Positions 7,534 to 60,380 of a DNA stretch of 64,000 nt are shown piece after piece (within the stretch, counting starts at the first letter, position 1; the number at the start of each line of letters is the position of its first letter). This stretch comes from Dehalogenimonas sp. W (GTDB lineage Bacteria; Chloroflexota; Dehalococcoidia; Dehalococcoidales; Dehalococcoidaceae), in NCBI RefSeq assembly GCF_037094495.1, contig NZ_CP146612.1, positions 992,001 through 1,056,000 on the forward strand, read 5' to 3'. The position numbers were made by a program, and so were the translations under genes. The notes under the pieces were generated by a model that had not been told where the DNA came from, did no database searches, and worked only from the letters and a program-made list of their open reading frames with translations.

Positions 7534-7562
7534 TTGACATGACCGGCTTTGAACCCTATTAT
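7534..7562 (+). promoter_or_regulatory. Sigma-70-type promoter of the methyltransferase/cyclase/UbiA cluster
   Basis: TTGACA at 7534-7539, a 17-base spacer and TATTAT at 7557-7562. It predicts a start of transcription near 7569 and a leader of about 110 bases before the first gene. It separates the downstream cluster from gpsA as a distinct unit. Confidence 0.75.
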
Positions 7563-7678
7563 TTAGTACTATTCATAACATTTCAAAGACAGTTATAAGG
7601 TAATGCCAATCACGCCCGATTATACCCGATGGGTATATGGCGGCGTTTGTTTTGAGAATTAAGGGCGAAGGAGAGTTC

Positions 7679-8443
7679 ATGGAGACAATCGCGCCGGTAC
7701 AAGACCCGGGTCTGGAATCCGAAGAAGCCAGAAAACGTAAGAAATACATGGTGGACCTGTTTGTGGTTCAGGCCAAAAACTATGACTTTCACGATGATAT
7801 TTACGGTTTTTACGCTCACCGTTTGTGGGTGAGGACCATGGTCAAAATCATAGAGAAGTTTATGAAGGGCAAAAAGCGGGCCGATATGCTGGATATGGGT
7901 TGCGGCACCGGGTTTGTGACCTTTAATGTGGCCCGTAAACTCCCCAGCATTGATATTGAATCATTTGACCTGTCCCCCGATATGATTGCCGTTGCCAAGG
8001 AACGCTATGAAAAGGGTTTCAAAGGCCGCAAAATCAAGTTCTGGGTGGCGGACGCTGAGATTCCGTTCGGGGTCAACAAATACGATATCGTCACCACGTC
8101 CTTCGCTTTCCGCAACTTTGCCAATAAGAACCTGGCGACCAAAAATGTATTCAATGCCCTTAAACCCGGCGGTATTTTCATTATTCAGGACCTGACCAAA
8201 CCGGAAAAACACCCGATGAAGGGCCTCTACGCTTTTTACATGAAATATATCCTGCCGATTATCGCCCGGATTCTCGGGACTGAGAAATCAGCCGCGGGCT
8301 GGCTCAAGAAGAGCACCGATTTTATGCCGAAAAATGCGCAGCTTCAGAAAATCCTGGAGGATGCCGGCATGGTCAACTGCTATTATAAAAGCCTGTCCGG
8401 CGGTATTGCCTGTATCGTCGTCGGCTACAAGCCGGAGGCTTAG
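7679..8443 (+). CDS. SAM-dependent methyltransferase, UbiE/MenG-like, copy 1
   Basis: A 254-residue class I methyltransferase. I chose the ATG at 7679 because GAAGGAG lies just before it; an in-frame codon at 7637 has no such site. The SAM-binding motif I is LDMGCGTGFVTF, with the acidic loop ESFDLSPDM and the post-motif LKPGGIFIIQDLTKPEK, which resembles UbiE/COQ5 proteins. It shares long identical stretches with the next gene (SFAFRNFANKNLA, NVFNALKPGGIFIIQD), so the two are a tandem duplication. First gene of the cluster; the substrate is unknown, but its neighbours suggest a prenylated ring compound. Confidence 0.85.
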   Translation: METIAPVQDPGLESEEARKRKKYMVDLFVVQAKNYDFHDDIYGFYAHRLWVRTMVKIIEKFMKGKKRADMLDMGCGTGFVTFNVARKLPSIDIESFDLSPDMIAVAKERYEKGFKGRKIKFWVADAEIPFGVNKYDIVTTSFAFRNFANKNLATKNVFNALKPGGIFIIQDLTKPEKHPMKGLYAFYMKYILPIIARILGTEKSAAGWLKKSTDFMPKNAQLQKILEDAGMVNCYYKSLSGGIACIVVGYKPEA

Positions 8444-8444
8444 C

Positions 8445-9218
8445 ATGGGGGAAGGGACGATAGCAGCGGGGCAGCACCTTCAAGACCCGGGTTTTGAGTC
8501 TGAAGCAGCCAAAAAGCGCAAAGCGTATATGCTGGAGCTTTTCGGCTATCAGGCCCCCAAGTATGATCTTCATGACGATATCATCGGTATGGGTATTCAT
8601 CGCCGGTGGGTCAAGGATGTCCTCAAGGTTATCGGTCATTATAAAAAAGACAAAACAGAACTGAAGATGCTGGATCTGGCCTGCGGCACCGGCTTCGTCA
8701 CCTTCAATACCACGCGCAATTTTCCGGAATTAAAGATTGATGCCTTTGACCTGGTGCCGGAAATGGTTGAGGTGGCGAAAAAACGTTACGACAAGGCCTT
8801 TAAGGGTAGGGACATTAATTTCTGGGTGGGCGATTCTGAAGTGCCTTACGGTGAGAATAAGTATGACATCATCACCACCTGTTTTGCCTTCCGTAATTTT
8901 GCCAATAAGAACCTGGCCGCACAGAATGTGTTCAAGGCGCTTAAGCCCGGCGGTATCTTTATCATTCAGGATATGACCAAGCCGGAAAAACAACCTTTGC
9001 GCGGTTTATATCTCTTTGCTCTGAAATACCTGTTGCCGGTCATCGGCACGATTCTGGGGACAGCCAAGGGGTCGCCGCGCTATCTTTATCATTCGGTGAT
9101 GTTGTTGCCGAAAAACACCGACATCGCCAAAATACTGACTGATAACGGTTTTACCGATGTATGGCACAAATACCAAAGCGGCGGTATGGGGACCGTTGTG
9201 GCGGGCTATAAGAAATGA
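8445..9218 (+). CDS. SAM-dependent methyltransferase, UbiE/MenG-like, copy 2
   Basis: A 257-residue paralogue of the preceding gene. The ATG at 8445, one base after the previous stop, aligns with the paralogue's N terminus (QDPGFESEAAKKRKAYM against QDPGLESEEARKRKKYM). Motif I is LDLACGTGFVTF; CFAFRNFANKNLA and LKPGGIFIIQDMTKPEK match copy 1 nearly word for word. Its stop overlaps the start of the cyclase gene (ATGA), so translation is coupled. Two related methyltransferases in a row suggest two methylations of one scaffold or of two intermediates; this is inference. Confidence 0.85.
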   Translation: MGEGTIAAGQHLQDPGFESEAAKKRKAYMLELFGYQAPKYDLHDDIIGMGIHRRWVKDVLKVIGHYKKDKTELKMLDLACGTGFVTFNTTRNFPELKIDAFDLVPEMVEVAKKRYDKAFKGRDINFWVGDSEVPYGENKYDIITTCFAFRNFANKNLAAQNVFKALKPGGIFIIQDMTKPEKQPLRGLYLFALKYLLPVIGTILGTAKGSPRYLYHSVMLLPKNTDIAKILTDNGFTDVWHKYQSGGMGTVVAGYKK

Positions 9219-10321
9219 AGAGGGACATGGCAGAATTACAGACCTTTAAATATGACATCGGCGGCGGACGCTTCCGTTCCATCTACCTGGGTCGCGACAT
9301 TCTGGACCAACTGGCCGATTGCGCGGGTGGTCTGGGCGCCGATAAGTTTTTCATCATTACCGATGACAACGTGGCCGGTGCTTTTCTGGAACCCGTCAAG
9401 GCGGAACTGTCGAAAGTAGCCGAAACCCATGCCCTGATATTTCCCGCCGGTGAACAATCCAAGACCCTGACCACGCTGGAAGAGCTGGGTGCCAAGGTGC
9501 TTGACGCCCGCGCCACCAAGTCCAGTGTGATTGTCTGTCTGGGCGGCGGCGTGGTGGGCAATCTCGGCGGTCTGCTTTCCGCCCTGCTGTTCCGGGGTAT
9601 CCGCTTTTTCCATATTCCCACCACCATGGTGGCCCAGATTGATTCGGCCATCGGGCAGAAGCAGGCGGTTAATTACAAAAGGGGCAAGAATCTCTTCGGG
9701 CAGTATTACCCGCCGGAATTCGTGTTTATTGACTTCGGTTTTCTGCGAAAACTGCCGGAGCGACAGATTAAAGCCGGGCTGGCTGAATCGGTTAAGCACG
9801 GTTTGTGTCAGGAAGAAACCTTTTTTGAATACATCAATCAGAGAGCGCCGGAGTTTTCCTGGGATGATATTGAGTATATCTCGGCCCACACTATTGAACT
9901 GAAACTGGAACTGCTGGTTATTGATCCGTATGAGGGCAAGCTGGATCCGCAATTGGAACTGGGCCATACCATCGGTCATGCGCTGGAGATCAGGAAAAAC
10001 GGCCAACTGCTGCACGGTGAATCCATCGCCATCGGCATGACAGTTGAATCCCGTATTTCGGTGGCTCAGGGTTTCATGGAACCGGAACTGGCCGAACGTA
10101 TAGAAGCTATTTTCCAGAAAATTGGTCTGCCGACCCGTATTCCGGCCGACATTTCCATTGATCAGATTTTGGAGACGCTCACCTTTGATAATAAGCGGCG
10201 TACCGCCATTAATGACTTTTTCCTCCTTGAAAAATTCGGTAGCTTCCACAAGGAGAACGGCAAGATTTCCTGCAAAGTTCCGGAGCCGCTGCTGAGACAG
10301 GTTCTTGAGCGCTGCTACTAG
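9215..10321 (+). CDS. Sugar-phosphate cyclase (AroB superfamily), not a typical dehydroquinate synthase
   Basis: An NAD- and metal-dependent cyclase of the 3-dehydroquinate synthase superfamily, 368 residues from the ATG at 9215 (a second ATG at 9227 follows GAGGG closely). It has the glycine-rich GGGVVGN (110-116), D143, K149, E191, K230, H251, H255 and H267, i.e. the core metal and phosphate-elimination residues. It differs from AroB where substrate is read: GGGVVGD becomes GGGVVGN, GGKTAVN becomes GQKQAVN, and the AroB Arg and Asn before LGHT are D244 and E248. As I recall the family, an Asn in the glycine loop, KQAVN and LExGHT are features of 2-deoxy-scyllo-inosose-synthase-type cyclases. 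So aroB is doubtful here. It sits between methyltransferases and a prenyltransferase. Confidence 0.8.
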   Translation: MKRDMAELQTFKYDIGGGRFRSIYLGRDILDQLADCAGGLGADKFFIITDDNVAGAFLEPVKAELSKVAETHALIFPAGEQSKTLTTLEELGAKVLDARATKSSVIVCLGGGVVGNLGGLLSALLFRGIRFFHIPTTMVAQIDSAIGQKQAVNYKRGKNLFGQYYPPEFVFIDFGFLRKLPERQIKAGLAESVKHGLCQEETFFEYINQRAPEFSWDDIEYISAHTIELKLELLVIDPYEGKLDPQLELGHTIGHALEIRKNGQLLHGESIAIGMTVESRISVAQGFMEPELAERIEAIFQKIGLPTRIPADISIDQILETLTFDNKRRTAINDFFLLEKFGSFHKENGKISCKVPEPLLRQVLERCY

Positions 10322-11231
10322 CCCGGTTGCGGTACCCTTTAATTACTGGGTACAGGCTGCCCGACTGAAATTTCTGCCGCAAGGCGTTCTGCCGGTCATT
10401 ATCGGCGGCGCGGCGGCCGTGTCGCAAGAGGTTTTTAACCCCGGTTATTTCGTGCTGGCTTTTATCGCGGCAGCCGCGGTGCAAGTCGGTCTGACCATGT
10501 TTAACGATACACTGGATTTCCAGTACGGCACCGACCGTTCAACCCCCGGGGCCAAGAACCCCTTTTCCGGTGGCTCCGGTGTGTTGACCACCGGCCGTAT
10601 TCAGCCGCGACAGGCGATGCAGGTAATCATCGGGCTATATATACTGGCTCTGGTCATCGGTATTTACTTCGCCTTTGTCGTCGGCATCGCCAGCCTGGGT
10701 ATTGCGGCGATTGGGGCGGCTATCTCCATTGTTTATTCGGCTCGGCCATTTCGGCTGGCTTATCGAGGCCTGGGGGAGCTGGCTATGCTGATCGGCTACG
10801 GCCCGGTGATAACCGGCTGGGCTTATTATATCCACGCAGGGGTGTTGACCAGTGATATCCTGTTGATTGGGCTGATTCCGGGCTTGAGCATGTGGACGAT
10901 GATTCTGATTAATGAAATACCGGACTATGCTGAAGACCGGCAGGCGGGTAAGAAAAACCTGACCTACCGGCTGGGGCCGGCCGGGGCTAAAAATCTTTTT
11001 ATCGGGTCACTGGCCGGGATTTATATTTTTATTGCCTGGTTATTGATAATCGGCGTCTTGCCCGGAGCTGCCGGGCTGGTTTTCGGCGGTCTGCCGCTGG
11101 CTTTTGCCGCCGCCCGCGCCGCCCATCTTCATTATTCCAATCCGCTTAAAGTAGCCGCGGCCAACAAATATATGGTTCTGGTCTATTTTGTTACCAATAC
11201 GGCGGTGGCCGCAGGATTATTAATAGGATGA
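10305..11231 (+). CDS. UbiA-type prenyltransferase (MenA-like)
   Basis: Membrane enzyme that transfers a polyprenyl group from its diphosphate to a ring acceptor. The two Asp-rich motifs are intact: NDTLDFQYGTD (67-77) and NEIPDYAEDR (203-212), which bind Mg-diphosphate. Eight or nine hydrophobic segments fit the UbiA fold, and SARPFRLAYRGLGELAML resembles MenA. The likely start is a TTG at 10305, overlapping the cyclase gene by 17 bases. The acceptor is unknown: no menaquinone genes are visible around it, only a cyclase and methyltransferases. Confidence 0.88.
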   Translation: MSAATSPVAVPFNYWVQAARLKFLPQGVLPVIIGGAAAVSQEVFNPGYFVLAFIAAAAVQVGLTMFNDTLDFQYGTDRSTPGAKNPFSGGSGVLTTGRIQPRQAMQVIIGLYILALVIGIYFAFVVGIASLGIAAIGAAISIVYSARPFRLAYRGLGELAMLIGYGPVITGWAYYIHAGVLTSDILLIGLIPGLSMWTMILINEIPDYAEDRQAGKKNLTYRLGPAGAKNLFIGSLAGIYIFIAWLLIIGVLPGAAGLVFGGLPLAFAAARAAHLHYSNPLKVAAANKYMVLVYFVTNTAVAAGLLIG

Positions 11232-11242
11232 GAGGTTGAGCC

Positions 11243-11845
11243 ATGGTAGAACCTAAATTTTTTGAGACGATTGCTCCGGCATATGACTTTCTGACCAGGT
11301 TGTTCATGGGCGGGACTTATGAAAGCATGCGTAAACGGATGCTTAACGAAGATACCTCCCATATGGATATTCTGGACCTGTGCTGCGGCACCGGTTATAT
11401 CTGTAACACGATTGAAGCCAGACGGATAGTTGGCTTGGATCAATCCGACGCTATGCTGGCGCGTAACGCCAAGGTGAAGCGGGAAAACAAAACGCTCATC
11501 AAAGGCAATGCCTACCAAATGGATTTCAAGCCGGAAGAATTTGACCGGGTCTACAATTCCAGTGCCTCTCATGAGTTTAAACTTTTTTCGCGTCTGATTC
11601 AGAAGAGCTACGAGATACTCAAGCCGGGCGGCAAGTTAATCATTTTTGATATTTACCAGCCGAAAAACCCGATTCTTTCCTTTTTCATGAATACCTTTGT
11701 CCGTTATGTGGTTGAGCGCGGCATTATGTTTGTGCATACCAAGGATGAATGGCGTAAAATGCTTCAGGATGCCGGTTTTATAATTGAAGAGCTGGACGTG
11801 GTTCGGGGATTGTATATATTCGCCCGGGTCAGGAAGCCGGAATAA
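11243..11845 (+). CDS. SAM-dependent methyltransferase, third of the cluster
   Basis: A 200-residue class I methyltransferase, shorter than and clearly different from the two upstream paralogues. Motif I is LDLCCGTGYI and is followed by VGLDQSDAML; LKPGGKLIIFDIYQPK is the post-motif. The N terminus FFETIAPAYDFLTRLFMGGTYE resembles UbiE-like proteins. It starts 11 bases after the prenyltransferase stop and ends the five-gene unit. A substrate related to the prenylated product is inferred from position. Confidence 0.85.
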   Translation: MVEPKFFETIAPAYDFLTRLFMGGTYESMRKRMLNEDTSHMDILDLCCGTGYICNTIEARRIVGLDQSDAMLARNAKVKRENKTLIKGNAYQMDFKPEEFDRVYNSSASHEFKLFSRLIQKSYEILKPGGKLIIFDIYQPKNPILSFFMNTFVRYVVERGIMFVHTKDEWRKMLQDAGFIIEELDVVRGLYIFARVRKPE

Positions 11846-11918: not shown

Positions 11919-12245
11919 ATGGGATTGACACTGGGTGAAGCCATCAGGCACATTGTCAACAAAAACTATGCGATAGTGTCCGCCGACCTCTTTGATGAGT
12001 GTCTGGGACGCAAGTATGAGGGAACTGCCAATGTGCCGGCCAAAGAAAAAACGACCTGGCCGATGAAAATTGAAGAAAAGCTCAAGGAAGTACACCAGGT
12101 GAAGTTGGGCGAGGGCGAGTTCAAATGGACCCGTCAGGATATTGGCTCCGATACCTACCTTGACGTCAAACTCTGGCTGGAGGATGAACTGGGCTTGCCG
12201 CATAAGGAAGTTGACCGCGGTTTCAAGCTGGGTGTAAGCAATTAG
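11919..12245 (+). CDS. Conserved-looking hypothetical protein, 108 residues
   Basis: I do not recognise this family. The protein is soluble, charged, with no Cys and no signal peptide. An AAAGGAGGG ribosome site about 20 bases upstream, a full promoter and a downstream terminator show it is a real single-gene unit. The first third (GLTLGEAIRHIVNKNYAIVSADLFDECLG) is probably helical, and the C-terminal half contains several Trp-anchored short strands and a KLWLEDELGL helix. Confidence 0.7.
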   Translation: MGLTLGEAIRHIVNKNYAIVSADLFDECLGRKYEGTANVPAKEKTTWPMKIEEKLKEVHQVKLGEGEFKWTRQDIGSDTYLDVKLWLEDELGLPHKEVDRGFKLGVSN

Positions 12246-12861: not shown

Positions 12862-13338
12862 TTAGGCGTCAAACACACTGTCGTGAGGATGCTTGCGTGA
12901 AGCCTGCAAGGACTTGATTTCTGACTTTATCAATTTATCTAAAATCTCCTGCAAGGATGTTTGTTCCTCCGGGGTCAGGGCACAAAAAATAGAAACGAAA
13001 CAATCGGTCATTAAAACCGGGTCAAATGCGTGTTTACCAGCCTCTGTTATTCTTACCAGATGTTTACGGGTGCCGGGAACAACACTGGTGCTGACAAGCC
13101 CCTTGTCTTTCAACCTGCCGACCAGACGAATGATGGTGCTTCGTTCTTTGAGAGTCATAACCATCAAATCTTCAATCAGGTAATCCCTGCCATCGTATAT
13201 TGTGTGCAACAGAGCCCCTTGCTCCGGCGGCATGGACTTAACATGGGCCATCTCTCTGATCAATATCCGGTCCATCAAAGTTTTTGACTGAGCCAACAGG
13301 CAACCCAGTTCAATTTCTTGTTTGAAGTAATGGTTCAA
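12862..13338 (-). CDS. MarR-family transcriptional regulator, divergent from rdhA
   Basis: A winged-helix regulator of 158 residues. I chose the TTG at 13338: AAGGGAG lies eight bases before it and a TATAAT box (13372-13377, minus strand) lies upstream, whereas an in-frame codon at 13383 would place the -10 box inside the gene. The region SMPPEQGALLHTIYD / LIEDLMVMTLKERSTIIRLVGRLKDKGLV is the MarR helix-turn-helix, and VPGTRKHLVRITEAG is the wing. It is divergent from the reductive dehalogenase gene with 147 bases between them, an arrangement known for MarR-type rdh repressors in Dehalococcoides. It probably controls rdhA and itself. Confidence 0.85.
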   Translation of the reverse strand: MNHYFKQEIELGCLLAQSKTLMDRILIREMAHVKSMPPEQGALLHTIYDGRDYLIEDLMVMTLKERSTIIRLVGRLKDKGLVSTSVVPGTRKHLVRITEAGKHAFDPVLMTDCFVSIFCALTPEEQTSLQEILDKLIKSEIKSLQASRKHPHDSVFDA

Positions 13339-13371
13339 TTGATTACTCCCTTGTATTCTCCGTGCTGTTTG

Positions 13372-13434
13372 ATTATACACCAATAAAAAATACGCATAAA
13401 GTACTAATTCTAAAGTACGATGACAAAATATAAT
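13372..13434. promoter_or_regulatory. Divergent marR/rdhA promoter region with repeated operator-like words
   Basis: On the minus strand TATAAT (13372-13377) serves marR. On the plus strand TATAAT at 13429-13434 serves rdhA, without a clear -35. Between them TAAAGTAC occurs twice as a direct repeat (13397-13404 and 13411-13418), and the same bases form the inverted pair GTACT-N8-AGTAC (13401-13418). The position suits a MarR-type operator. Confidence 0.55.
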
Positions 13435-13485: not shown

Positions 13486-14895
13486 ATGACAGTCAGGTTC
13501 CACTCAACAATTTCCCGCCGTGATTTTATGAAAGGACTCGGGTTGACCGGCGCCGGGTTAGGTGTTGCGGCGGCTGCAACTCCCGGTTTTCATGACCTGG
13601 ACGAGTTAGTCGGTTCGTATGAACAAAAGCGTGATTGGTGGATCAGGGAACGGGATTATGAGGACATTACTACTGAAGTAGATTGGGATGTTTATCAGGC
13701 ATATGACCCTAAAACTCACCCCGCAGTGCCGGTCTCGGATGCAGTCAGGGCGGCTACTCAGGCACGGGTGGCCAAAGACAAGTCCGAGGGACTTGCAGGG
13801 AGGCTGCCCGGTTATGATCGGCGCGGCATGGCATGGTACTCCGCCTCAGGTCAATTTAACTTCAGCGTGCCGTGGACCGGTTCCAACAGTTACTGGAAAC
13901 CTTCAGAAGGTGATAATGCTGTTCCGTATAATGAAAGTTCCGATTATAACCTTCAGGTGTTGAGGGCTGCCTTTCATTCATTCGGCACACCGGCGGTCGG
14001 GGTGATTGAATTGAACGAACACATGAAGCGCTTGTTCAATAAAGGACTGTGCGTGTGGGAAGATATTGATGAACCGTTCCAGGATGAACAGAAACTGTAC
14101 CATATACCCAACAAATGCAAATGGCTCGTGGTTTGGGAGAGTCAGATGACTCAAAGTCAGGGCACGTTTGGGTATTCCAAAAACCCTGATACTCTCAGCG
14201 GCTACGGTTCATCTGTGCCTTTGGGCAGAATGGATATGCAGGGTTATGACTGGGCCGGATCGGTATGGAACCGCGCCACTTCTTTTATCAAGGGACTGGG
14301 ATACTATGCTCTCAGGCCTGGTGGTATGATGCCATCGCAAAATACTGCTTATGGCGTTTTTGCTGGCCTTTCCGAGCAAGGGCGGCCTCACTATCGCATG
14401 AGCCCCGGTTGGGGGCTTTGCAGCCGCTACGCTGATTCGGCGATTACTGATATGCCTTTAGCCCCGACCAAACCGATTGATTTTGGCGGTCACCGCTTTT
14501 GTAATACCTGCAAACGTTGTGGTGAGGTCTGCCCGAGTCAGTCAATTGACATGTCCGATGAGCCCAGTTGGGATACGGTAGTGCCCCGTAATAATCCTGG
14601 TATCAAGGCCTTCTGGATGAACTGGGATACCTGTTCCGGTTTCGGCGCTCCGGTGAACTGCGGAATTTGTCAACCGACCTGCCCCTTTAACCATCCGTCC
14701 GAGGCCATTATTCATCCGGTTGTCAGGGCTGTCGCCGGCAATACCGGTATTTTTAACGGTTTCTTTGCCACAATGGATAGAACCTTTGGATACGGAAAAG
14801 TGCGTTCTGAGGATGAAATGGAAGCCTGGTGGACCCGAGACCTTTCAACATTCAAGGGCGATACCATCAATGGTGCCGGTAAATTTAACTGGTAG
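13486..14895 (+). CDS. rdhA: Reductive dehalogenase catalytic subunit without RdhB partner
   Basis: Cobamide- and Fe-S-dependent terminal reductase of organohalide respiration, exported to the outer face of the membrane by the Tat system. The twin-arginine signal SRRDFMKGLGL is at residues 10-20. Cluster 1 is C339-x2-C342-x2-C345-x3-C349-P; cluster 2 is C383-x8-C392-x2-C395-x3-C399-P. The 469-residue length suits full-length RdhA of this group. A good AAGGAG site precedes the ATG. No rdhB follows: a strong terminator comes at once, so membrane anchoring would need another protein. The divergent MarR gene is the likely regulator. The halogenated substrate cannot be predicted. Confidence 0.95.
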   Translation: MTVRFHSTISRRDFMKGLGLTGAGLGVAAAATPGFHDLDELVGSYEQKRDWWIRERDYEDITTEVDWDVYQAYDPKTHPAVPVSDAVRAATQARVAKDKSEGLAGRLPGYDRRGMAWYSASGQFNFSVPWTGSNSYWKPSEGDNAVPYNESSDYNLQVLRAAFHSFGTPAVGVIELNEHMKRLFNKGLCVWEDIDEPFQDEQKLYHIPNKCKWLVVWESQMTQSQGTFGYSKNPDTLSGYGSSVPLGRMDMQGYDWAGSVWNRATSFIKGLGYYALRPGGMMPSQNTAYGVFAGLSEQGRPHYRMSPGWGLCSRYADSAITDMPLAPTKPIDFGGHRFCNTCKRCGEVCPSQSIDMSDEPSWDTVVPRNNPGIKAFWMNWDTCSGFGAPVNCGICQPTCPFNHPSEAIIHPVVRAVAGNTGIFNGFFATMDRTFGYGKVRSEDEMEAWWTRDLSTFKGDTINGAGKFNW

Positions 14896-28852: not shown

Positions 28853-28973
28853 CTTCTGGTGATTAGAGCGATGTGGCACCACCCGTTCCCATCCCGAACA
28901 CGGCCGTGAAACGCATCAGCGCAGACGATACTGAGGGGGCGACCCCTTGTGGAAAATATGCCATTGCCAGGAG
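28853..28973 (+). rRNA. 5S ribosomal RNA
   Basis: About 120 bases, starting at the stem strand TCTTCTGGT and ending GCCAGGAGA, with the conserved CACCCGTTCCCATCCCGAAC loop. It follows 23S by about 70 bases. TTTTTATATTTT immediately after the closing stem may help terminate. Confidence 0.95.
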
Positions 28974-28992
28974 ACTTTTTATATTTTACTCG

Positions 28993-29020
28993 CAGCCTTG
29001 TCTTTAGACAGGGCTGTTGG
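28993..29020 (+). terminator. Possible second terminator after 5S
   Basis: Stem CAGCCTTGTC / GACAGGGCTG with a TTTA loop, followed by TTGGTATTT; the U-tract is weak. Confidence 0.45.
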
Positions 29021-29102
29021 TATTTCCGCGGCAATTACGGCCGATATTGGTGTCAACGCGCGGGTCAACTGTGATAGAGTAATAACGGAGGCTGAGTATA
29101 TT

Positions 29103-30119
29103 ATGATTGTGGAAATGAAAACCGGTGCCCCCGGGTTTGAGGTGGATGCCGTGGTGGATAAAGCTAAGTTGCTGGGATTGAACGTTCAGCTTAACCTGGG
29201 TACCGATAAGGTAGTGGTAGCCCTGTTGGGGAGCAACACCGGTTTTATCGACACCGACCAGTTTGCCGTACTGCCGGGGGTGGAAAGCGTCACCCGGATA
29301 ATGAAGCCGTATAAGCTGGCTTCCCGGGAATTCCGGAAGCAGAATTCTGTGGTGACTATTAACGACGTTCAGGTCGGCGGTCAACAGCTTGTGGTGATGG
29401 CCGGCCCGTGCGCGGTGGAAAGTGAAGCGCAATTGACCGAAGCAGCCGGTGTGGTTAAAGATGCCGGAGCGGTTATCCTCCGCGGCGGTGCCTTTAAGCC
29501 CCGCACCTCACCTTTTAGTTTTCAGGGGTTGAAGCAAGCCGGTTTGGAATTGCTGGACAAGACGCGGCAGAATTTCGGTCTGCCGGTTATTACTGAAGTT
29601 GTGGACGCACAAGATGCCGAGATGATGGCTGATTACGTGGATATTTTTCAGGTTGGCTCCCGGAATATGCAGAACTATTCACTGTTGACCTGCCTGGGCA
29701 AAATCCGGCGGCCGGTGGTGCTGAAACGCGGTTTCGCCTGCACCATCACTGAGTGGCTGACCGCGGCGGACTACCTGCTGTCTGAAGGTAATGAACAGGT
29801 AATCCTGTGTGAGCGGGGCATCAGGACCTTTGAGGATTCTACCCGCTTTTCACTGGATATATCTTCCATCCCGGTGATTAAAAAATACTCTCACTTACCG
29901 CTGGTGGTGGATCCCAGTCATGCGGCCGGGCATTATTCACTGGTGCCGGCACTGGCCAAGGCCGCGATCGCTGCCGGAGCCGACGGCCTTTTGATTGAAA
30001 TGCATCCCGACCCGCGCAAAGCGCTGGTGGACGGTATTCAGTCATTGTCGCCGTCAGATTTCCGGCAGCTGATGGCTGATCTAAAACCCATTGCCGCTGC
30101 CGTGGGTCGCACGTTGTAA
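29103..30119 (+). CDS. aroF: 3-deoxy-7-phosphoheptulonate (DAHP) synthase with N-terminal regulatory domain
   Basis: First enzyme of the shikimate pathway. The ATG at 29103 has GGAGG eleven bases upstream; the frame is open back into the 5S region but that part is not coding. The 338-residue protein has a ferredoxin-like/ACT-like domain (1-85) and the KDO8P-synthase-type barrel (VVMAGPCAVES, LRGGAFKPRTSPFSFQG, QVGSRNMQNYSLL, DPSHAAGH), the same layout as the Thermotoga enzyme, which is feedback-controlled through this domain. No other aro gene is adjacent. Confidence 0.94.
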   Translation: MIVEMKTGAPGFEVDAVVDKAKLLGLNVQLNLGTDKVVVALLGSNTGFIDTDQFAVLPGVESVTRIMKPYKLASREFRKQNSVVTINDVQVGGQQLVVMAGPCAVESEAQLTEAAGVVKDAGAVILRGGAFKPRTSPFSFQGLKQAGLELLDKTRQNFGLPVITEVVDAQDAEMMADYVDIFQVGSRNMQNYSLLTCLGKIRRPVVLKRGFACTITEWLTAADYLLSEGNEQVILCERGIRTFEDSTRFSLDISSIPVIKKYSHLPLVVDPSHAAGHYSLVPALAKAAIAAGADGLLIEMHPDPRKALVDGIQSLSPSDFRQLMADLKPIAAAVGRTL

Positions 30120-50770: not shown

Positions 50771-52549
50771 CTATTTCCTTGTAAAGCCATGACAATTAGC
50801 GCAGTCGTATCCCTTTTCTTCGGAATGCAACTGGTGCATACGGTAGTAGCTCAGGTTTTCGCCGGACTTGTCCGCGTGACACTGGGTACACACAACGTCA
50901 GTGGAATCCTTCAACACATAACCCAGAGCCTTAAGGTCAATCCTGGCCGTACTTTCATGGCAGGCGCCACACAGCAGGGCTTCCTCTTTCGGGGCCACTT
51001 CATGGTTCAGCATCAAGTATTCATCGGCGATGATCCATTCCACCAATTCAGAGGCGCTGTAACCCATATTGACCAACCCGGCAATAGCGGCCGCATTGCC
51101 GTCGCCCGTCTTAAAGAACACACTGGTATCCAGAGCGATCAACTGGCCCAGATTCGGGGCGTACGGTTGCTCTGAAGTCTTGTATTTGAAAGCGTACAGC
51201 TTGCTGGCCGGGTCGTTGAGCGCCCCCAGCGGTCGACTGATGGATATGTGGCAGGTCAGTGGATTTTCAACGACCTGATCGTACATATTATACATATAGC
51301 TGTTTTTGTTCCAGAAAAGGTAAACCGGTGTAACGTCGTTGGCCAGATGGAGTTCCGGTTCATATTTGGTGCCGGTATATTCATTCTCCAGCCAGGTCCG
51401 GTGTGTCTCCGTCGCCTCGGAAGCGGCGGTATCGTCGGCATTCTTGCCGTAAATCGGTATATGGCAGGTCTGGCAGGCTACTTTATCAACATGGTTGTTG
51501 ACCCCCTGGACTTTGTGGCCGGTTGAAGTCAGTTTATCTTCGTGGCAATCGGTACATTGCGGCACTATCAGAGAATCACTTACTCTCAGGTCGCTGCCCC
51601 GGCCCGGCGCCCGGTGATCATTGAAAATATGGCAGTCCACGCACTCCAGGTTGGCCCCGTTGGTCGCCATGTGGACGTCAAAATTAACATCGCCGGTAAC
51701 GGCATGAGCCAGTGACAGGTCGCCGCGTTTCAGGGAATCACCCCCGCCGCCCTTGGCATGGCACTGGAGGCAATTCGCTTTCACCGGGCGGTGAACGGTC
51801 TGAGCGGCTTCGTCCATGGTTATCGTCATTTTTGCCGTATCCGGCTGGAAAATACCGTTCACTTCCACCCGTTTGTAGGCCTGCTGGTGACAGATCAGGC
51901 AGTCAATGTTCTCCAGTTGTTCCTGGGTTTGTTCCGCCGTCGGCTCCAGTCCCAGACCTACATGGCAATTCCCGCAGGTTTCCCAGTTGCCCAGAATGTT
52001 AATGCAGAAGGTGTTGAACGCCCCGGCGATCTTACCTTGCAGTGCCGGCCCGATCGTGGTTCCCTGGGCAGTGCCCAGGCTGATTCCGGCCCACTGATAA
52101 TGGACGGATTCATGCATGTCTTTGGCTTCTTCAATGTGGCAGGACAGGCAGGTGTCCACTCCCTGCCAGGAAATGTATTCGTGCGGATTATCACTCAGCA
52201 CGGATTGCAGATTAGTCACCAGTGTGCCCCCGTTTTCCAGGTTGAGCGTCACCGCGGTGCCGCGGGGCAGGTGGTTCAAAGGCTGAGTGGTGATTCCCAA
52301 TTGGGAAGAGTGGACATCGTTAATCTGGGTATGGCAGTAACAGAGGTATTCAGCAGTCTCATAGGACAGAGATTCGCCGGCTTCGTTTAGAATGGTAATA
52401 GTGTTGCCGTTAATCTCTTCAAGGGTTCCGGTAACCTGGGCCGGCAGCGGTTCGGGTTCCGGTTCGGTGGTACATCCGGCCGCAAAGGCTGCCGTCAGCA
52501 TCAACAGGAAGAAGAAAGCTATCAGATATATCTGTTTCGTTCGGCTCAT
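50771..52549 (-). CDS. Decaheme c-type cytochrome lipoprotein
   Basis: A 592-residue exported multiheme cytochrome. The N terminus is a lipoprotein signal (LMLTAAFAAGC, lipidated Cys near residue 26). Ten CxxCH heme motifs are seen: CLSCH, CGNCH, CLICH, CLQCH, CVDCH, CTDCH, CQTCH, CGACH, CTQCH and CANCH; a further CYCH (one residue between the Cys) near residue 87 is odd. Many extra His could be distal ligands. It resembles octaheme/decaheme electron-transfer cytochromes; a periplasmic electron-transfer role is likely, the partner unknown. No cytochrome maturation genes are in the window. Flanked on both sides by repeat mosaics. Confidence 0.9.
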   Translation of the reverse strand: MSRTKQIYLIAFFFLLMLTAAFAAGCTTEPEPEPLPAQVTGTLEEINGNTITILNEAGESLSYETAEYLCYCHTQINDVHSSQLGITTQPLNHLPRGTAVTLNLENGGTLVTNLQSVLSDNPHEYISWQGVDTCLSCHIEEAKDMHESVHYQWAGISLGTAQGTTIGPALQGKIAGAFNTFCINILGNWETCGNCHVGLGLEPTAEQTQEQLENIDCLICHQQAYKRVEVNGIFQPDTAKMTITMDEAAQTVHRPVKANCLQCHAKGGGGDSLKRGDLSLAHAVTGDVNFDVHMATNGANLECVDCHIFNDHRAPGRGSDLRVSDSLIVPQCTDCHEDKLTSTGHKVQGVNNHVDKVACQTCHIPIYGKNADDTAASEATETHRTWLENEYTGTKYEPELHLANDVTPVYLFWNKNSYMYNMYDQVVENPLTCHISISRPLGALNDPASKLYAFKYKTSEQPYAPNLGQLIALDTSVFFKTGDGNAAAIAGLVNMGYSASELVEWIIADEYLMLNHEVAPKEEALLCGACHESTARIDLKALGYVLKDSTDVVCTQCHADKSGENLSYYRMHQLHSEEKGYDCANCHGFTRK

Positions 52550-53224: not shown

Positions 53225-54628
53225 ATGGGTAAATTCCATCACACGGTAAGCCGCCGTGATTTCATGAAAGGGCTCGGTCTGTCGGCCGCCGGACTCGGCG
53301 CCGCCACAGTCGCTAATCCCGGCTTCCATGACCTGGACGAAGTCACGGCCTCCGCCGGCGGCGAACTTAAGCGCGCCTGGTGGGTCAAGGAAAATGATTT
53401 TGGCAATCCGGCCACCTTGGAAATCGACTGGAGTCTGGTTAAAAGACCGGACCGCTCCAAGATCTCCACTTTCCCTTATCGCAACAGCACTCATCCCACT
53501 GCCGTTTACAACAAGGAACATTTTGCTGAGTTACAGAAATCAGTCATTCAGCACGCCGCCCCGGATTGGGAAGCTGACAGTATTCAGGACTTGGCCATGA
53601 GCGGCGCCACTCTGGCGCTCCGCTTCTACAACTACTACACCCCCGCCGGCAAAACCATGTTCATGGGCTATCAAAACTCCCCGACCCCGGCTGACCGCAA
53701 CATGGCGCGCTGGGAAGGCAGCCCTGAAGAGAATATCCGCCTGCTCCGTCACGCTTCCCGCTTCTTCGGTGCTTCCAGCCTGAGCGTTACTTTACTTGAT
53801 GAAGACACCAAGAAACTGATCTTTGAAAAAGAATCCAATGGTAAGGCTTATGTCTTCCGTGATGTCGCCGATGTTGAAGAAACGGCGACGGAATACATCA
53901 TTCCCAACCGATTCAAATACATGATTACCTGGACCCACCTCCAGGCCACCGAGTTGACCCTGCGCGAGCCTTCCACCCTTGGTCAAAGCGCCAGCAATAT
54001 GGCCTACAGCCGCTTACCTTTCATCTCCGTTCAGATGCAGGAATTCATTCGCGGCCTGGGTTACCACGGCATCAACGCCTGGAGCGGCGAGATGGCGTCA
54101 TCCAATCCCTTCGGTGTGCTGTCCGGCGCCGGTGAACACGGCCGCTTTGGTTTTGCGGTCATCACCCCGGAACTGGGTTCTATGGTACGCGGTATGTGCC
54201 GCATGCTGACCGACCTGCCCCTGGAGCCCACCAAGCCGATTGACGCCGGTATATCCCGGTTCTGTCTGACCTGTGCCACCTGCGCCAAATTCTGTGCCTT
54301 CGGCGCGCTGTCGCTGGAAGATCCTTCCTGGGAATCCCTGAAGGAAGCCGATACCGGCGTGCCTTACAGCCCGGACGGGTTCAAGGGCTGGCGTCTTAAC
54401 ACCGTTAAATGCGCTAACTGTACCGCCTGTCAGGCCTTCTGCCCGTTCAACTCGTCGGGCCGCTCCAGCTTCATTCACGAGTTCGTAGCCGGTACTTCTT
54501 CCATCACCCCGATCTTCAACGGCTTCTTTGCCAACATGGAAGAAGCCATGCACTACGGCAACAAAGATCCGCGGACCTGGTGGGAGAATGAAGAGTACCT
54601 GTACGGCATCAATCCCAAATTCATCTAA
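53225..54628 (+). CDS. rdhA: Reductive dehalogenase catalytic subunit with RdhB partner
   Basis: Tat-exported cobamide/Fe-S reductase of organohalide respiration, 467 residues. The signal SRRDFMKGLGL is identical to that of the 13.5-kb gene. Cluster 1 is C347-x2-C350-x2-C353-x3-C357, followed by Ala instead of the usual Pro; cluster 2 is a regular C396-x2-C399-x2-C402-x3-C406-P. AGAGAGGG precedes the ATG. rdhB follows after 32 bases, so this is a complete rdhAB operon. No regulator gene is adjacent. Substrate cannot be read from sequence. Confidence 0.96.
   Translation: MGKFHHTVSRRDFMKGLGLSAAGLGAATVANPGFHDLDEVTASAGGELKRAWWVKENDFGNPATLEIDWSLVKRPDRSKISTFPYRNSTHPTAVYNKEHFAELQKSVIQHAAPDWEADSIQDLAMSGATLALRFYNYYTPAGKTMFMGYQNSPTPADRNMARWEGSPEENIRLLRHASRFFGASSLSVTLLDEDTKKLIFEKESNGKAYVFRDVADVEETATEYIIPNRFKYMITWTHLQATELTLREPSTLGQSASNMAYSRLPFISVQMQEFIRGLGYHGINAWSGEMASSNPFGVLSGAGEHGRFGFAVITPELGSMVRGMCRMLTDLPLEPTKPIDAGISRFCLTCATCAKFCAFGALSLEDPSWESLKEADTGVPYSPDGFKGWRLNTVKCANCTACQAFCPFNSSGRSSFIHEFVAGTSSITPIFNGFFANMEEAMHYGNKDPRTWWENEEYLYGINPKFI

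Positions 54629-59027: not shown

Positions 59028-60380
<1,353 letters not shown>

Follow-up and report, generated by a model that had tools for sequence, protein, structure and literature searches.

What would a bacterium from a group described as lacking quinones make with a sugar-phosphate cyclase, a UbiA-superfamily prenyltransferase and three methyltransferases encoded side by side? We addressed this question for a five-gene operon (genes A to E) of Dehalogenimonas sp. W, located in a 64,000-nucleotide stretch of its chromosome (NZ_CP146612.1, positions 992,001 to 1,056,000 of the forward strand; hereafter the window). The source genome is a single 1.77 Mb contig and 99.75% complete. Dehalogenimonas has been described as not making quinones (PMC5736913) and Dehalococcoides as being without them (PMC6005880), and no description of this operon was found in the literature searched. 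A first-pass annotation of the window had suggested that these genes could build a prenylated, methylated ring lipid from a sugar phosphate without chorismate. We find that the operon is real, conserved and beyond known annotation, and we lean towards the view that it encodes a pathway dedicated to a membrane lipid with a prenylated, multiply methylated carbocycle, built from a hexose phosphate independently of chorismate. This lipid would most likely be quinol-like. The operon spans window positions 7679-11845, with all five open reading frames (ORFs) where the first-pass annotation had placed them:

7534..7562, + strand: promoter, TTGACA (7534-7539), 17 bp spacer, TATTAT (7557-7562); kept upstream of orthologous operons
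7679..8443, + strand: gene A, UbiE/MenG-like S-adenosylmethionine (SAM) methyltransferase (PF01209, 151 bits)
8445..9218, + strand: gene B, second UbiE-like methyltransferase, a paralogue of A (PF01209, 129 bits)
9227..10321 (alternative start 9215), + strand: gene C, sugar-phosphate cyclase from the 2-deoxy-scyllo-inosose (DOI) synthase side of the AroB superfamily (PF01761/PF24621)
10305..11231, + strand: gene D, UbiA-superfamily prenyltransferase of MenA/UBIAD1 type with a TTG start (PF01040, 100.6 bits)
11243..11845, + strand: gene E, short class I SAM methyltransferase, weakly UbiE-like (PF08241/PF01209)

Both the tight packing and the promoter that had been read from the window held up. 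Genes A and B are separated by 1 base and D and E by 11; B and C meet in an ATGA overlap, provided that C begins at 9215, and C and D overlap by 17 bases, a length that recurs in the Dehalococcoides-like locus L041. The TTGACA-N17-TATTAT promoter is genuine and more than a product of chance: 11 of the 12 orthologous loci have its hexamers, or one-base variants of them, 17 bp apart ahead of the operon, despite diverged sequence between and around them, and none of 300 within-sequence shuffles reached the score of the promoter in the window. Taken alone, the promoter copy of the most distant locus, L044 (described below), is not significant (0.09). Compared with the nearest relative, A-D have ratios of nonsynonymous to synonymous substitution rates (dN/dS) of 0.03-0.12, dS itself being close to saturation, which indicates that these genes are under purifying selection.

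The cyclase was present in all 11 Dehalococcoidaceae genomes examined, 8 from the genus of the window and 3 from a second genus whose content fits Dehalococcoides. Searches with tblastn over 13-14 kb around each cyclase copy recovered A-B-C-D-E in the same order and on the same strand in the other 10 of these genomes (10/10), with different genes flanking the operon in the second genus. Sampling 245 genomes from the class and 400 from the phylum turned up no cyclase orthologue in any other genome; the others listed carried AroB at ∼30-39% identity to the operon cyclase. Scanning 84,980 species genomes with two short peptide patterns yielded, among the matches listed, one further operon, locus L044 in a Chloroflexi metagenome-assembled genome (MAG; WRFJ01000003.1), which carries all five genes in unchanged order, at 66, 54, 65, 55 and 56% identity to A-E (tblastn). 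The remaining matches listed were cyclases of 31-39% identity without the operon neighbours, and because the scan rested on two short patterns, more distant copies of the operon may be missed. The first-pass annotation had proposed comparing gene order across Dehalococcoidia and other Chloroflexota, and the order proves to be kept in every Dehalococcoidaceae genome examined and in the L044 MAG, with gene E found in all 12 operon loci.

The L044 MAG, presumably from termite gut although its record says only Chloroflexi bacterium, encodes nine reductive dehalogenases over the cut-off. Carrying these and the whole operon, it is a candidate organohalide respirer outside the two known genera.

Such a set of genes might share a transcript for historical reasons while serving unrelated processes, as the compact genome and the housekeeping genes on both sides would allow. 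The retention of the five-gene order across genera and in the deeper MAG while the flanks were replaced, together with the fact that all five genes are of the sort expected in a single type of pathway, makes this very improbable. Conservation across genomes, along with the kept promoter, the C/D overlap and purifying selection, leads us to conclude that the operon goes with the organohalide-respiring lineage. Because this is a single lineage, the distribution is no evidence that dehalogenation needs the operon.

The identity of the cyclase is central to the proposed route. The first-pass annotation had left room for gene C being an ordinary dehydroquinate synthase (DHQS), and the active site, the phylogeny and a separate aro operon rule this out. 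Canonical AroB is encoded at 1113834, within an aroA-aroK-aroE-aroD-aroB-DAHP synthase operon (gene names read from the sequences; DAHP, 3-deoxy-D-arabino-heptulosonate 7-phosphate). In an alignment of 121 cyclases (Aspergillus nidulans DHQS numbering), the operon cyclases retain the metal ligands Glu187, His247 and His263 and the catalytic residues Lys145, Lys190, Lys226, Asn155 and Arg123. All 12 carry Asp (Asp240) in place of Arg264, which in the A. nidulans enzyme binds the carboxylate of DAHP, and Glu (Glu244) in place of Asn268, whereas the Arg264/Asn268 pair is present in 97 of 97 other AroB-like sequences. BtrC and three plasmid DOI synthases, two annotated as such and one assigned by best match, have Gly or Ala at the Arg264 position, and all four share with the operon cyclases both the Glu at the Asn268 position and a DNKR motif. 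In maximum-likelihood trees the operon cyclases, the DOI synthases and a wider relative from another Chloroflexota genome (L141, 262 bits, with no UbiA or UbiE gene beside it) form a clade (support 100/99.9 and 100/99), and the operon cyclase falls outside a 40-row AroB group (100/99). With the three motif-bearing active-site blocks removed, the DOI synthase clade keeps a support of 96/97.6.

BtrC, the DOI synthase of 2-deoxystreptamine antibiotics (PDB 2d2x/2gru), is the nearest functional relative of gene C, and the two also have KQAVN..GKNL.G.YYPP in common. They differ in overall sequence (∼32% identity), in the Asp that the operon cyclase carries where BtrC has Gly/Ala, and in a His for Asn after Lys190; the operon, moreover, lacks an aminotransferase or glycosyltransferase. 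DOI synthase acts on glucose-6-phosphate (PMC6170601), and from its residues and phylogeny gene C is predicted to use a hexose phosphate, most likely glucose-6-phosphate. This narrows the three candidate substrates proposed in the first pass (glucose-6-phosphate, DAHP and sedoheptulose-7-phosphate), with glucose-6-phosphate now favoured and DAHP disfavoured.

Could gene C nonetheless be a second DHQS that supplies the prenyltransferase with extra dehydroquinate or with an aromatic precursor? Its best single PDB match by sequence and by fold is a DHQS, and its nearest NCBIfam model is aroB (TIGR01357). The score on this model, however, is 277.1 bits, under the cut-off of 305 and similar to that of annotated DOI synthases (247-263 bits). 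Given also the loss of Arg264/Asn268, the grouping with DOI synthase and the canonical AroB in the aro operon, we regard a second DHQS as extremely improbable.

Two further observations concern this superfamily and its substrates. Another Chloroflexota family has a solitary relative of the DOI synthase group (locus L142, 8329-9495, - strand, genome G253), with Glu and Gln at the Arg264 and Asn268 positions and a short-chain dehydrogenase/reductase-like gene in its neighbourhood; it possibly represents a further cyclase specificity. The window also encodes a second DAHP synthase (28947-30119, + strand; PRK08673, 463 bits), which is not part of the aro operon.

Pfam and NCBIfam likewise bore out the prenyltransferase and methyltransferase classes of the first pass. 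Gene D is the sole PF01040 gene of the genome (cut-off 34.2 bits), which encodes one polyprenyl diphosphate synthase, and by alignment it keeps the Asp positions of both Asp-rich motifs, NDTLD and DYAED. Its best NCBIfam models are MenA, all under their cut-offs (best 128.1 against 264 bits; TIGR00751, 80.9 against 102.15), and its only PDB match is UBIAD1 (8djk); no match was found to the UbiA, EboC or archaeal lipid models. Genes A and B are 58% identical. On the UbiE/MenG subfamily model TIGR01934 (cut-off 158.35) A, B and E score 160.0, 144.6 and 69.6 bits, with A below all UbiE/MenG equivalog cut-offs, and class I SAM motifs can be read in all three methyltransferases (LDMGCGTG, LDLACGTG and LDLCCGTG).

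These families are those of menaquinone synthesis (MenA and MenG/UbiE), raising the question of whether a complete menaquinone pathway, which the first-pass annotation had considered as a use for these proteins, exists in the genome. MqnA was absent (no PF02621 match), and for MenD the best TIGR00173 score was 74.5 bits against a cut-off of 244.2, the other menaquinone steps not being searched; a menaquinone pathway by way of MenD or MqnA is therefore rejected. Nor did gene D match the 4-hydroxybenzoate prenyltransferase model TIGR01474 at E 0.001 (UbiC, UbiD and UbiG were not searched). Conceivably, the cyclase works separately, and D and the three methyltransferases make menaquinone-like lipids out of 1,4-dihydroxy-2-naphthoate or a demethylmenaquinone imported from neighbouring organisms. 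MenA and UbiE are indeed the best-scoring families, and late menaquinone steps alone have been taken as menaquinone capability in other Chloroflexi (PMC5736913). We nevertheless find this improbable: the MenA and UbiE/MenG equivalog cut-offs are missed, the operon has three methyltransferases for the single methyl of menaquinone, there is no MenD or MqnA, and the cyclase is kept in 12/12 operon loci, with its 17-base overlap with the UbiA gene recurring in a second genus.

Pairs of a cyclase and a UbiA-like protein have been described for the ebo operon (EboC, UbiA-like, and EboD, a cyclase) and for BE-40644 (PMC5133447). The ebo operon is the nearest known cluster of this kind, placing an AroB-superfamily cyclase beside a UbiA-superfamily prenyltransferase with a predicted isoprenoid-cyclitol product (PMC5133447). 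The EboC and EboD models and the tree rule it out here, with a real ebo locus from a Chloroflexota genome (L154: sugar-phosphate cyclase, TatD-like protein, TIM barrel, UbiA and phosphodiesterase) as the control. The operon cyclase scores 170 bits on NF004852 (cut-off 333) against 576 for the EboD control, which pairs with EEVS in the tree (98/96, both on long branches), whereas the operon cyclase groups with DOI synthase. Gene D does not match the EboC model NF035940, nor does anything in the genome at E 0.001, and three methyltransferases stand in place of EboB, E or F. The BE-40644 cluster of Actinoplanes (EEVS and a UbiA-like protein) is a biochemical precedent for prenylating a cyclase-made ring; as described, it starts from sedoheptulose-7-phosphate via EEVS and makes an actinobacterial secondary metabolite, unlike a lineage-wide operon (PMC5133447). 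Dehalococcoides VS and Dehalogenimonas lykanthroporepellens are listed among species without secondary-metabolite clusters (PMC5270213).

These precedents raise the alternative that the product, whether a lipid or a secondary metabolite, is an ebo-like prenylated cyclitol, neither aromatic nor redox-active, whose hydroxyls the methyltransferases would cap. The operon contains no aromatizing or redox gene, which would fit, as does the lack of detected quinones in Dehalococcoides (PMC10772276). Since the operon is not ebo, and since the MenA/UBIAD1 type of D and the kinship of A and B with ring C-methylating UbiE/MenG favour an aromatic, quinol-type acceptor, we judge the cyclitol product unlikely.

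For the quinol-like lipid that we prefer, the data show the class of each enzyme, its catalytic motifs, the absence of DHQS-type residues from the cyclase and its place beside DOI synthase, and the strict conservation of the genes as a unit; from these we infer the substrate, step order, aromatization, redox role and product. Gene C would oxidize a sugar phosphate, most likely glucose-6-phosphate, eliminate phosphate and close the ring to give a ketocyclitol of the 2-deoxy-scyllo-inosose kind. Such a compound would offer a nucleophilic carbon beside the ketone and could lose water towards a polyhydroxybenzene. Gene D may then attach a polyprenyl chain at that carbon, or on the aromatized ring, and A, B and E could contribute as many as three methyl groups. 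Chemically, losing water to become aromatic is easy for such rings: hydrogen iodide turns DOI into catechol in mild acid (PMC6170601), and inosose yields 1,2,3,4-tetrahydroxybenzene in acid (PMC11467972).

One ring-forming enzyme, one prenyltransferase and three methyltransferases are what a prenyl benzoquinone with three methyls would call for; in ubiquinone, these are two O-methyls and one C-methyl. Plain loss of two waters from DOI would leave a three-oxygen ring, so the four-oxygen ring of ubiquinone would need one more oxygen, for which no gene was in view. A complex I-like enzyme is present in Dehalococcoides mccartyi, with its subunits in part detected in proteomes (PMC11238625). That the product is an isoprenoid quinone serving this enzyme, its ring derived from glucose-6-phosphate via a DOI-type cyclase instead of chorismate, can be offered only tentatively, the odds being against so specific a form.

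Several points weigh against the quinol-like lipid and the cyclase assignment beneath it. White et al. (2005) reportedly found ubiquinone-8 in Dehalococcoides, judging by the title as it appears in reference lists. Without the active-site blocks, a constrained tree uniting the operon cyclases with Dehalococcoidia AroB was not rejected (approximately unbiased test, p-AU 0.067). The AlphaFold model of gene C is confident (predicted local distance difference test score, pLDDT, 90.5), but its overall fold fails to separate DOI synthase from DHQS (Z 42 vs 47), and we counted the fold comparison as evidence for neither. The classical phosphoglucose isomerase (PGI) family is absent from the genome; glucose-6-phosphate is still plausible as the substrate because a PGI/phosphomannose isomerase-type domain is present. 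Aromatization is a gap in the scheme, since none of the five genes encodes a dehydratase, dehydrogenase or hydroxylase: the gene set is consistent with the lipid first proposed, and the product stays a prediction. D. mccartyi has been described as without quinones or the genes for them, none of the compounds having been found in its membranes (PMC10772276), and reductive dehalogenases are argued to be poorly served by the potentials of ordinary quinones (PMC2930330). Because of these potentials, a role beside the dehalogenase chain (with complex I, in protection or in membrane structure) is as likely as one within it.

The surroundings of the operon hold further genes of note. Downstream, 11919-12245 (+) encodes a 108 amino acid protein without a family, kept beside the operon within the genus and not found there in the second genus. 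A reductive dehalogenase gene (13486-14895, +; TIGR02486, 210 bits) adjoins the operon, with a MarR-like regulator (12862-13383, -) divergent from it. Farther along, a multiheme cytochrome c with about ten CxxCH heme motifs (50771-52549, -), nearest the octaheme tetrathionate-reductase family (TIGR04315, 283 bits, cut-off 375; PF11783), lies close to a second reductive dehalogenase (53225-54628, +; TIGR02486, 274 bits); the related Dehalococcoides is described as without cytochromes. A transposase-like ORF at 59028-60155 (-) looks from its sequence to be of IS110 type.

Looking forward, a 2026 survey of quinone pathways remarked that lineages without known pathways, including Chloroflexota, may hold undiscovered quinones (PMC13386864). 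Organisms reported to be quinone-free express a complex I-like enzyme, leaving its quinone partner missing. An operon kept throughout this lineage, and equipped to make a prenylated ring lipid, gives direct and testable evidence of an unseen membrane compound. If the lipid exists, it could be a membrane electron carrier that has so far been missing, or else a novel lipid type, and if its ring comes from a hexose phosphate, quinone-like lipids would have a biosynthetic route that avoids the shikimate pathway. Such a shikimate-free route, if true, would bear on the bioremediation of chlorinated solvents.

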